From Onchidella celtica (Eukaryota; Mollusca; Gastropoda; Systellommatophora; Onchidiidae): DNA of 64,000 bases. The position numbers and the translations under genes are program-made. This document shows, piece after piece, positions 4,609 to 41,791 of the stretch. Positions within the stretch are counted from its first letter, which is position 1, and every line of letters starts with the position of its first letter. The stretch spans positions 12,195,582 to 12,259,581 of the forward strand of contig OZ007576.1 in assembly GCA_963931925.1 (NCBI GenBank), written 5' to 3'. The notes below the pieces were generated by a model, which saw nothing but the letters and a program-made list of their open reading frames with translations, ran no database searches and was not told where the DNA came from.

Positions 4609-5182
4609 AGCTACACACAGATAGAGAGAAGAACCAGAGGAAAGAATACATGCAGCACAAACATTGATAGTGTAAATTATTTCACATCGGAAATCAAATT
4701 ATTAATTTAAACAGCCATAATGTCCCTTACGTCATTGTTTTGAGAAGTTGGAGACTTTCAGCGTATATTAAGCCAGTCCTTTTTGTCATTGGCCATGGGC
4801 TATTCAGAGGGATAGGAACAATATAGTTTTAAAAATAAAAAGACACCCCCGCCCCCCCGCAAAAAAAAATAATTAATGAATGAATTGGAGTGCCCAAAGC
4901 ACGCAAAAGTACAGAAATAATGAAATTGAAAATAATAAAGAAAACAACTCAAATTCAAATAGAGGTATTTCTTACACAGCTTAATGTCTCTATCACGACA
5001 CTACATTACAGTCCCAAGTATTGACTGAAGCTCCACTTAAATTTGAATCGACAATGCCGGCACTCTGAACTGAAAACGCCTTTTTTTACAACTCCGCCCA
5101 CGTCACACTGTCAATGTAAAGTGAACTGAAAAGGGAAGAAAGGACAGCTGATGCCGCCTTGTAAAGCAACATTCCCCTAACG

Positions 5183-5649
5183 CAGTGGTTCTCAACCTTT
5201 TTCAGAAAAACGGCCCCTTAGACTCCAAATTTTGTGTCATCTTCTCCTTCCCCTCTCTCTCTCTCTCTCTCTCTCTCTCCCCCCCCCCCCTTCTAAACAA
5301 AAAACCTAACCAGGATCACTCTCACAGATTATGATGTCAAGTTCTGTTGTTTTTTTTTAAAAGTCTTTTTGGGTGTGTTGAATATTCAGTATACATGTAT
5401 AATATAACAAAGCATTCTTTTAAATTAAAAAAAAAAGCTAGGACGTTTCCCTTCACAAAACCCACCTACGAGGGCTGTTGAATAATAATTATGTCAGTGG
5501 CTGCTCTGTATTTTGCCCCCCCCCCCCAATCGATTGCCCCTTCATCGTTTTCGCCCCCCTGTAACCCTTTTCTTTGCTCCCCCCGCCTCCGGAAATTAAA
5601 ATCGCCGACGGGGGGGGGGGGGCAATATAGCCCACGTTGAGAACCACTG
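5183..5649. mobile_element. hAT-type non-autonomous element
   Basis: Starts CAGTGGTTCTCAACC and ends GTTGAGAACCACTG, the reverse complement. It is flanked by CCCTAACG (5175-5182) and CCCTAAGG (5650-5657), an 8-bp duplication with one mismatch. The 5'-CAG end and 8-bp duplication are hAT hallmarks. The interior has CT and poly-C/poly-G tracts and no coding capacity. Confidence 0.88.
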
Positions 5650-5825
5650 CCCTAAGGTTTCCGAGATTGCCAAACAAGGCCCAGATCCAGTGCTGTTCCG
5701 CCGTGTGATTAGCAGTAAGCTAAACGATGAATAGCAATGAATAGAATGGGGGCATTGATCTCGAGGTTCACAGGCGGACAAGTACTTTCTGTAGTGTTTG
5801 TTGTCTTGTCACACGTTTTGTAGCG

Positions 5826-37584: not shown

Positions 37585-37871
37585 GAGACCATATTGACTT
37601 TCAACATTAGTGTTATTACTCCCGTGTGTTGTTTGTATATCATTCATACCTCGAATGGCAACAGAACACTGCATGAGATTTATGTCACTTTTGAAGTTCT
37701 GGGTTGACGTAACAGAACATAGCAACAATCAAAGGGATGGTTTCTTTGTGCCCGACAGCGAAGAGGGTACGCTTCCACGAATTTGAAAAATTATTTGTGC
37801 CCAAAATGGGTAGAGGTGGAGAGGAGAGGGGCAGTTGCAGAAAGATTTACATCACAGTTTCAATGATATTA

Positions 37872-37887
37872 AGGGCCCATACACGAT
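37872..37887 (+). repeat. Left terminal inverted repeat of Harbinger element
   Basis: AGGGCCCATACACGAT, preceded by target duplication TTA (37869-37871). Followed by AT-rich palindromic repeats of TCAAAATTTTGA type to about 38100, which are candidate transposase-binding sites. Confidence 0.92.
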
Positions 37888-38165
37888 AAAAAAAGTCGTC
37901 AAAATTTTGATTCAAATTTTTGACATCAAAATTTTGATGAGAAATTTGATCGTGTGTAGGGTGTTTTGATGTCAAAAAAAATTTGAATCAAAATTTTGAC
38001 GGATCAACTTCAGTTGATATTTTTTGATGAGTTGTCAAATTTTTGATACGAGCTATCAAATTTTTGATTCGTTTGTGGGCTCGTGTCAAAATTTTGATCA
38101 AATAAATTTCTTTTTCCTAGTTGACAACCAAGACGGCAGGACAAGAAATTAAATAAGAAATCACA

Positions 38166-40546
38166 ATGTCTTCAAAGAAAGAGAATGAAAAGAAATTTTT
38201 AATAGAACTGCTTGAGGTGTATCAGATTGCCGGCACTGTGGAAAATCAAGTCGGAGGACTATCACAACCGGTTTAAAAAAGCTGAATCCTACAACACCCT
38301 TTTGAGGAAATATCAGGAATTTTTTAAACAAGGATCAATGGAAGAAATGAAAAAAAAGCTTAACAATATGCGAACAAACTTTAGAAACGAGCTACGAAAG
38401 ATCGAGAAAAGTTCAAGATCAGAAGCTGGCAGTGACGAACTATAGGAGTCAAGGGCATGGTTCATGTCTGCGATGATGTTCTTAAAAGACCAAGAGACCC
38501 CTGCCAGGTCAAGAAGTACCCTGCCGGATGTAAGCAACACTGAACAAGACACAATTGATGTAAGTAAATTGTATTTATTATTGTCCCCCAATTTCTTCTA
38601 GCCATGAAAACTGCAATTGATCCATAAGCCCAGGAAATCTTGACATTCTATTCCAGTTGACTATTGTGAAGTCAACCCTGCACCAAATCGCGTTCAGCTT
38701 CATTTTATCCATTAACCATACACAGGCCACACAGTCTCATTTTGATGCACATAAAGTCTGTTTGTATGAAACCATTACGCAATTCTGGCATCTTGCCATG
38801 GAACTTGTCCTTGTGTGCAAAAGTGTTGGCGGTAAGAATCTCGTACACCGCGTACCATCGCTCCAATGTTTCTACTTCTGCATGTCCTCAAACTTTCAAT
38901 TAGATGTTGTTCTTCTCGCCAGTCCGCTGGGTGGATCTCGTGATTAGCATCTTCCCAGTCCACACTTCCAGCTCTCAAGTAGTGTTTTGATTTCTTGCGA
39001 AGGAAATTGTGCAGATAACAGCATGCTAGCGTAATAGTTGCAGCTTTTTCAGGGGCAAGTTGTATGGGGCTTCGAAATACCCCAAACCTGGCGGAAAGTA
39101 TTCCAAAAGCATTTTCTGACACCCGCCTCGCTCTGCTCAAGCGATAGTTGAACACGCGTTGGTCATGCTCTAATTTGTCCCCTCCGTATGGCTTTAAAAG
39201 ATTTTCTGTCATTCCAAATGCATCATCTGCGACGAAAACAAACGGCATTTTGCTTCCGTTCTGAACTATTGGCTCTGGTTGCGGAAGGTTCAAAGCGGCT
39301 TCTTCAAGGCGTCGGCCGAATTCAGTCACTGCTATCACCCCTCCATCGGAAACGCGCCCATTAACGCATGCATCGGCCATAATGAATTCATAATTGTCAT
39401 TGACAACTGCCATGAGTACGATGCTGAAGAATTTCTTGTAATTGAAGTAAAATGAACCGGATCCGACAGGTTTTTTGATAGCAATGTGCTTTCATCTATA
39501 GCACCTAAGCAGTGCGGAAAATTCCAGGCCGACTTGAAGGCTTCACTCGTCAGTCTCCATTCTTCTGGTGTTGTTGGAATCTGAAAAATGAATTAAATCT
39601 TGCTATTAAAAATTCAAAAACTCCCCCCCCCCCCCTATTTGAACTCATTTTTTGTTTTATTTTGATTGGCATGTGTATTTAGTGTAGTGATTAGGAGAGT
39701 GCTGTTGAGGATTGAAGTATTTATCCTACTTATTAAGACAGCTTGTTTTAGTTAAATTTATCTGGAGTTTACATTACTAAAAGCTACTAACAGTGGTTAC
39801 TTTGGGTTACATTGAGTAAACATAAAGTAAAAGGGAACATTTTAGCCTTTAAAACACGAGTAAATCAATAAAACAAATGTCCTTATGAAGCCTGGCACAT
39901 AGATCTGAGCAAAAAAAAAATTATTAAAAAACTTACGATTGTTGAAATATCGATACCAAACAAAGTCTAATCAAATTCGTGTGTGATTCTATTCCAGGAT
40001 GAAGGTTGCCCACAAGAAAGTACTAAAGATGGAGAAGCAGAAGACAGCGAGGAACCATCTACATCTACAGCGATAACACGCCCACTGCCCAGACCGACAA
40101 CGCCGTCATCCTCCAATCAGTCTGTGCCTACTACTACTATCAGAAAACGAAAATCAGCCCCGGAAGCCGAGAAAGCGGAGCTCCTGTCGTTGGCCAAAGC
40201 ACGCTTAGCTGAGCCGGACGACCCGTACCTGAGCCAAGCCAAGACATGGGCACATGAATTGAAAAGTATGGATCCCAGGCTACAGCTGTGGGCGAAGAAG
40301 AAAGCCGTAAATGACATCTTATTTGAAGGTCGATGCGGAACGCTGCACAAACATTCAGTCCAAATTAATTGTGACACTCCCACACCGCACAGCAGTCGAT
40401 GCAGTACACCATATTATTCTCAGACGGAATCTGCCTCCTTCTTGAAGAATGACCAAGGCGGACACTTTTCGCAAGAGCCAAATGAATGCATTGGAAACCA
40501 AAGCAGTCTCGCTCAGTTTTGCAGCAATTTCAACCCTAACGTTTAA
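38166..40546 (+). pseudogene. Harbinger MADF (Myb/SANT-like) DNA-binding protein, two exons, broken
   Basis: Exon 1 (38166-38559) starts at ATG as MSSKKENEKKFLIELLEVY. After a one-base insertion at about 38223 it continues with LPALWKIKSEDYHNRF, TLLRKYQEFF, MKKKLNNMRTNFRNELRKIE and SEAGSDEL, the order of motifs in a MADF domain. A TAG stop at 38443-38445 replaces what should be an aromatic residue in the DELYESRAWF context. The frame then stays open to a donor GTAAGT at 38560. Exon 2 (39998-40546) follows acceptor ATTCCAG. It encodes an acidic Ser/Thr/Pro-rich linker, a basic patch (IRKRKSAPEAEK) and a C-terminal helix-like segment ending near KKAVNDILFEG, which resembles the BESS-like tail of these proteins. 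The full product would be about 314 residues. It is probably the DNA-binding and nuclear-import partner of the transposase. Confidence 0.87.
38560..39997 (+). other. Predicted intron of MADF gene containing transposase exon 2
   Basis: Donor GTAAGT at 38560 and acceptor ATTCCAG ending at 39997 join GAT to GAT in the same frame. The 1438-bp intron contains the whole minus-strand transposase exon 2 (38775-39580). Confidence 0.75.
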
Positions 40547-41342
40547 GAAGATTGTGAAAATCGACATTTCTTATGGTGTGCATTCTGCTTTTGCTTTTTT
40601 GCTTAGATTCCCTTTTTCTTTCATTTGTCATATCATACCAATGTCACTTCATTTTGATGTTCAATACTTTGGTTTAATAACAAACTTTCAAATTTCAAAA
40701 ACAGTTACATCATGTTGAATTTGTCATTGTATTTCCGTTTTAAAAAAGGCATTGATTTATAAAAGGTACAGGTGTGCCCACCCTCTTGATTCCTGAGGCT
40801 AGTTAAAGAGTCTTATTTTTAAACTTGCGCCATGAAGCTTCCTTTTCTGTTATAGCGTTTTCACAGTTCTTAAAAGACAAAGACCAACACATTAACAACA
40901 ATATCGTACAATGTAAATTCACCTCACCTTTATAACCCCCTGACGCTTCAGACAAACGATAATGGCCTCGCATGTTTCGATGACCAACTTTCCTATCGCT
41001 TGTGGCGATGTTGCTGTCAGGAATTTCAAGTCTTCAAAGGAATTTCCAGACGCCAGGTACCTCAGTGTGATGGACAAGCGTTCACTTGGTGAAATGGATG
41101 AACGCATTACTGTGTCTTTTTTCCTTACCAATGGCTCCGAGTAACTCATCAAACGATTGCGCATCCATTCGTAGGAAGTTACGGAAGTCCTCAGGTTCGC
41201 TAATACGTAATTCTTTTAGAAGATTAGCATGCCCGTAGGTTCCGCGCTGTAATAACCAGTTCTTGGACCATTTCCGCCGTTTACGAGGTCTTTCATCCGA
41301 GTCCAAGGCAATTACAAGTGCTATGGCCACTGATACGTCCAT
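38775..41342 (-). pseudogene. PIF/Harbinger DDE transposase, two exons, two frameshifts
   Basis: Exon 1 is about 41342-40928. It begins MDVSVAIAL, continues with a basic KRRKWSKNWLLQRG segment and the family motifs NFLRMDAQSFDELL, RKKDTVMRSSISPSERL and ITLRYLASG. It ends at GVIK before a donor GTGAGG. Exon 2 (39580-38775) follows an acceptor TTTTTCAG and starts IPTTPEEWR, so the two exons join in phase. The DDE triad is visible: D in GAID (about 39494-39505), D in VADDAFG and E in SENAFG. The predicted product is about 400 residues, normal for the family. Two lesions break it: a frame change near 41136-41143 between LL and EPLV, and a one-base loss near 39493 directly after GAID. The product would cut and join transposon ends in the nucleus with the MADF partner. 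The intron holds exon 2 of that partner on the other strand. Confidence 0.92.
39581..40927 (-). other. Predicted intron of transposase gene containing MADF exon 2
   Basis: Read on the minus strand, the donor is GTGAGG after GTTATAAAG and the acceptor is TTTTTCAG before ATTCCAAC. Splicing gives GVIK-IPTT, which matches the family context. The 1347-bp intron contains the plus-strand MADF exon 2 (39998-40546). Confidence 0.75.
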
Positions 41343-41473
41343 GTCGAAGATTTTGACAAAACTGAATTTTGATTAAAAAAAAACGTGGATACGTGTGTGG
41401 GAAATTGTACATCAAAATTTTGAATCAAAATTTCCCATCAAAAATTTGAATCAAAATTTTGACGACTTTTTTG

Positions 41474-41490
41474 ATCGTGTATGGGCCCCT
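41474..41490 (-). repeat. Right terminal inverted repeat of Harbinger element
   Basis: ATCGTGTATGGGCCCCT on the plus strand, the reverse complement of the left end with one extra base, followed by target duplication TTA at 41491-41493. The adjoining 41400-41473 repeats the left subterminal TCAAAATTTTGA motifs in inverse order. Confidence 0.92.
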
Positions 41491-41791
41491 TTAGTCTTAC
41501 AGGTTTCTACGCTTTCCTCAGTGGCATGCAGAGATTTGTTGATACCCGGAACCAACACTCCTTGACTGTATTCCCCAAGACTCAAGTGTACTGCCTGGTA
41601 GTGAGAAATGTTAGAAAGGAAGACAGTATTGACGTGTAATAGGTTCTCTACCCTGGTCTCGCTTATTAAAACACGGATCCTCATTCATACCAGCTTGTGG
41701 GACTGTATAATATGGCAGCTGTACAACCAAGTTAATGGCGATAATTTTAAAGTTCACAAAATTTAATTTTTATTTCACTCTTTGATTGGAT

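Follow-up and report, generated by a model that had tools for sequence, protein, structure and literature searches.

The window, by which we mean the whole analysed stretch of 64,000 nucleotides from Onchidella celtica, holds what we read, with a probability of roughly 0.8, as the degraded copy of a once autonomous cut-and-paste PIF/Harbinger transposon, in which two convergent and separately spliced genes are interlocked in a layout that arose once and has persisted as a lock-in. One phase-0 intron is found in each gene, and the second exon of each lies within the intron of its partner on the opposite strand. PIF/Harbinger elements are represented by zebrafish Harbinger3_DR, rice Ping/Pong and insect PIFs with a MADF gene. 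The element resembles this superfamily in its PIF-type DDE transposase, in its second gene for a Myb/SANT/MADF-domain protein, in its terminal inverted repeats and in a 3-bp duplication of TTA/TAA, all of which were found.

The inverted arms, an end motif and the alignment with 16 other copies show that the element spans positions 37872-41490 of the window (3,619 bp). The first-pass annotation was right to see a Harbinger element at 38166-41342, but the arms, the flanking TTA and the copy alignment extend it on both sides. The left terminal inverted repeat (37872-37950, plus strand) and the right one (41411-41490, minus strand) are defined by arms of 78 nt at 37873-37950 and 41411-41488, which match at 85%. 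Outside the repeats, a target site duplication TTA can be read at 37869-37871 and again at 41491-41493, and TTA or TAA stands at the equivalent site in other copies. The element end motif occurs twice within the window against an expectation of zero. Inverted repeats and TTA/TAA are likewise present in the more divergent families D, E and F. In L014, a copy of the window's own family A, the motif TCAAAATTTTGA (up to two mismatches allowed) was counted seven times in the left 300 nt and twice in the right 150 nt, with none in between; these end regions correspond to about 37872-38170 and 41360-41490 of the window. Families D, E and F carry different repeated palindromic motifs at the equivalent place. 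The MADF protein may bind these repeated end motifs, both those of L014 and those of families D, E and F.

On the plus strand, exon 1 of the MADF gene (38166-38559) encodes the MADF domain (Pfam PF10545; E 5.5e-10 on the window piece, E 2.6e-11 on the L014 protein). It is followed by an intron at 38560-39997, which holds the opposite-strand exon 2 of the transposase, and by exon 2 at 39998-40546, which has a weak BESS-like stretch and ends with a stop codon at 40544-40546. In the joined L014 protein this stretch scores E 0.022 for BESS (PF02944), below the cut-off. The transposase gene runs on the minus strand from a start at 41342, with exon 1 at 40928-41342, an intron at 39581-40927 that holds MADF exon 2, and exon 2 at 38775-39580, which encodes the DDE domain and stops at 38777-38775. 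The domain belongs to DDE_Tnp_4 (PF13359; E 3e-26 on the window piece, E 2.6e-27 on the L014 protein), and the L014 transposase also matches PF04827 (E 3.8e-06). A search of transposase exon 2 against viral contigs found no relative. In family A the two proteins are 313 aa (MADF) and 409 aa (transposase) long. All four splice sites proposed in the first-pass annotation are present in the window sequence exactly where it had placed them: the MADF donor GTAAGT from 38560 and acceptor TTCCAG ending at 39997, and the minus-strand transposase donor GTGAGG from 40927 and acceptor TTTTTCAG ending at 39581. Both introns thus read GT..AG, and their positions are kept across the other families.

The window copy itself is not a working gene pair, which the first-pass annotation did not see, although its two-exon models hold. 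Frame shifts disrupt MADF exon 1, which also contains an in-frame stop, and both exons of the transposase; MADF exon 2 is the only exon left open. Because both genes are broken in the window, the gene models rest on other copies. The 1.14-Gb genome gave at least 52 matches to the element, and we aligned the window copy with 16 near-full-length family A copies (L010-L025) in 17 rows. MADF is intact in six of these rows and the transposase, with GT..AG, in eight; a ninth open transposase, that of L011, has a donor that reads AT. L014 is among the copies whose transposase exon 1 is open. Four rows (L014, L016, L019, L020) have both genes intact across the predicted junctions, so that the comparison with intact genomic copies advised in the first-pass annotation yielded genes that stay open across precisely the junctions it had drawn. 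The transposase alone is intact in four further rows and MADF alone in two. Since the mean pairwise distance among the 17 rows is only 1.7% (136 pairs), family A looks young.

Some family A copies have a structure of their own. In L018 (reverse-complemented, about 5022-5747) a full copy has as its immediate neighbour a short, internally deleted one, in which window positions 37873-38373 are joined to 41266-41491. In two other copies, L032/L036 on C1 and L033/L035 on C5, transposase exon 2 is interrupted at the identical point by about 770-790 bp of inserted sequence, bordered by a 17-bp repeat (window 39386-39402), and because they share this point a common source copy is probable.

To see how far the layout reaches beyond family A, relatives were grouped by transposase identity. 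From 2,635 candidates of the transposase search 102 were scored, and these fall into family groups A (mostly 95-99% identity), B (about 85%), C (about 81%), D (59%), E (53-54%) and F (47-53%). Most complete matches to the second transposase exon begin at query positions 138-141, which is the intron position. Counting the window copy (L009), 47 loci could be compared, and 30 of them have all four exons in the order MADF exon 1 (plus), transposase exon 2 (minus), MADF exon 2 (plus), transposase exon 1 (minus). By family this is the case for 18 of 30 loci in A, five of nine in B, two of two in C, the single locus in D, both in E and two of three in F, where the MADF exon 1 match of L054 comprises only 29 codons. 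The queries for D, E and F included pieces of their own loci, which aids detection but not the order. The remaining 17 loci are partial and do not contradict the order, the script's label 'partial, consistent' being a weak one that the more distant loci L052 and L053 pass too. In the partial B loci L039 and L040, transposase exon 1 lies just past the locus end, at the expected place and on the expected strand, and the F locus L055 is partly covered, with exon 2 of both genes and neither first exon seen. The mutually nested, opposite-strand two-exon genes first noticed in a single element are therefore seen across six families.

The representatives of all six families have GT..AG splice sites in phase 0 in both genes. 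Mutual nesting follows from complete coordinates in A (two copies), B, C and F. In the D and E loci (L049, L050) the first transposase exons are frame-broken, which made the script misplace the stop, so that nesting there rests on homologous blocks. Among the other representatives, the B locus L042 has both genes open (304 and 409 aa), the C locus L048 has a MADF frame without a start codon, and the MADF frame of the F locus L051 stops early.

Eight loci from a first family search (L001-L008) gave no match to the window proteins; three of them stood in a first tree and were left out of the second. In three B loci (L039, L040, L045) transposase exon 2 and MADF exon 2 lie farther apart and the start of MADF exon 2 is altered, perhaps owing to a shared insertion. 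At G000:C8:25625385-25626191, one open frame of 287 aa combines residues 2-123 and 257-409 of the transposase (about 75% identity), apparently because the intron region was lost by internal deletion together with the second MADF exon.

One might object that the gene models are wrong, i.e. that each second exon is a gene in its own right or is joined at another site, and that the nesting is a mere adjacency of reading frames. Several other donor- and acceptor-like sites do exist, among them three GTRAG per strand. However, the phase-0 junctions are homologous in six families, intact copies read through them, intronless relatives are continuous across the homologous transposase column, and the joined plus-strand protein continues from its MADF domain into a weak BESS-like stretch, so that we regard this objection as very improbable. 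No intronless MADF retrocopy, of the kind that would prove splicing, was seen among 40 scored of the 77 candidate genomic matches to the joined exon ends, since all 40 end at the junction.

The reading frames are also those on which selection acts. Comparing A, B and C with one another gives dN/dS values of 0.11-0.20 for the transposase exons and 0.20-0.34 for MADF exon 2; for MADF exon 1 the value is 0.09 in one of three pairs, dS being saturated in the other two. When A is compared with D, dS is saturated in three of the four exons, and transposase exon 1 of D is frame-broken. When the non-coding gaps of A were set against those of B, C and D, nine comparisons yielded two short alignments (33 and 24 nt); one of the nine, D gap 1, was mis-cut because of that frame-broken exon. 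The exons are thus under purifying selection in the stated frames, the gaps drift and the nesting stays.

Intact intronless relatives, on which the first-pass annotation would have foundered, do not occur among the A-F loci examined; distant PIF loci with an intronless transposase do exist in the same genome. The more distant PIF loci have whole-match identities of 36-39%, and in two of them, L052 and L053 (38% and 44% in the second half of the transposase), the transposase is one open frame of 533 and 457 aa, respectively. They share with the interlocked families a related DDE_Tnp_4 transposase and an opposite-strand MADF gene, but their genes stand side by side, tail-to-tail, instead of being nested; the MADF frame of L052 is cut by the locus end, and element ends, looked for at both loci, were not found. 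In the alignment the transposase intron occupies one column in all eight interlocked rows and is absent from L052 and L053. A tree of these ten transposases separates the eight from the two with a support of 100/100, given a root assumed outside the interlocked rows and two contrast loci, one of them on a long branch. The more distant intronless PIF loci fall outside the A-F families and so show at what point the layout changes. These sequences are most simply explained if the interlock arose once. The interlocked layout would have arisen out of the tail-to-tail one, for example by a tandem duplication of both second exons followed by reciprocal loss.

How the two genes might be expressed is suggested by putative poly(A) signals. 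A candidate signal of the transposase, AATAAA at 38574-38579 (minus strand), lies in the MADF intron beside the MADF donor. Families A, B, C and F all have this hexamer within the MADF intron, at a distance of about 19 nt from the donor in A. A putative AATAAA for MADF lies within the transposase intron of families A, B and C, and in A it is seen in L014 and L016. These candidate hexamers were looked for in A, B, C and F and stand in AT-rich stretches. The transposase intron of the window copy lacks the MADF AATAAA, and in the F locus L051 neither AATAAA nor ATTAAA occurs within 1 kb of the early MADF stop. Because the signals lie within the partner's intron, the mature mRNAs should hardly overlap: if the signals are used, they would abut or nearly so, while the primary transcripts of family A would share about 2.1 kb. 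The overlap of more than 2 kb that the first-pass annotation put forward for the primary transcripts is thus retained as a prediction; that the spliced mRNAs would be nearly free of it had not been seen there.

The predicted pre-mRNA overlap could itself be what selection maintains, if complementary stretches of about 2 kb formed dsRNA or interfered with each other, fed small-RNA silencing and thereby capped the copy number; this would turn the dsRNA idea of the first-pass annotation into an adaptive one. We consider this unlikely, because any convergent read-through pair would be capable of the same effect, sequence outside the exons is not conserved within the shared stretch, and the exon placement leaves the mature mRNAs with hardly any overlap. 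Pairing of the pre-mRNAs would likely be a by-product.

A second possibility is that the interlock was selected because an internal deletion hits both genes, which would keep solo-gene derivatives from arising as competitors for the transposition proteins. In its favour, Harbinger variants with a solo ORF are multi-copy in sea kraits (PMC8437027), which also makes the idea testable, and an informal look at 30 family A loci brought up no copy that had lost one gene by deletion and kept the other intact. On the other hand, partial copies are few, many being interrupted by insertions or truncated at the locus end, and point changes still let the genes decay separately, as the rows with only one intact gene show. 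We regard selection for linkage as possible but doubtful.

We prefer persistence by lock-in. A DDE transposase and a MADF/Myb-like DNA-binding protein are encoded on opposite strands; promoters near each inverted repeat would drive convergent transcription, each pre-mRNA would cross the partner's second exon as part of an intron and then be spliced, and each transcript would end at a poly(A) signal in the partner's intron, giving two nearly non-overlapping mRNAs. Both proteins would presumably act on the element ends. Since no single simple inversion or deletion undoes the interlock, the layout, once formed, would tend to stay.

In rice and zebrafish elements both proteins are needed and act together in transposition, and in domesticated insect PIF pairs the second gene lies beside the transposase in either direction (available text of PMC9710019); for PIF/Harbinger elements the second gene is described as placed before or after the transposase (available text of PMC2213677). 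The layouts described in these parts of the two papers differ from the one found here in having no mutually nested second exons. The same two protein types make up HARBI1/NAIF1 and other co-domesticated PIF pairs, but those are host genes, whereas the element described here is mobile. HARBI1 has two introns (5' UTR and coding) and NAIF1 one (coding), which the consulted part of PMC3257199 interprets as gained. It would be a bolder step to suppose that a single animal PIF lineage has long kept the interlock as a selected device, one that combines deletion-proof linkage with mutual antisense control ahead of splicing, and that some co-domesticated host pairs retain remnants of it in their coding introns, which would then not be later gains; this we think quite improbable. 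Titles and abstracts brought up by full-text searches of open papers yielded no description of mutual nesting, and Repbase or closed journals, which lie outside that search, may record it. We file the interlocked layout as a new structural variant of the known PIF/Harbinger superfamily.

Mutually nested exons on opposite strands, kept in families down to 47% transposase identity, would be an unusual layout for a mobile element. The interlock represents a natural test of how two-gene transposons retain both genes, and also of whether convergent pre-mRNAs matter for silencing.
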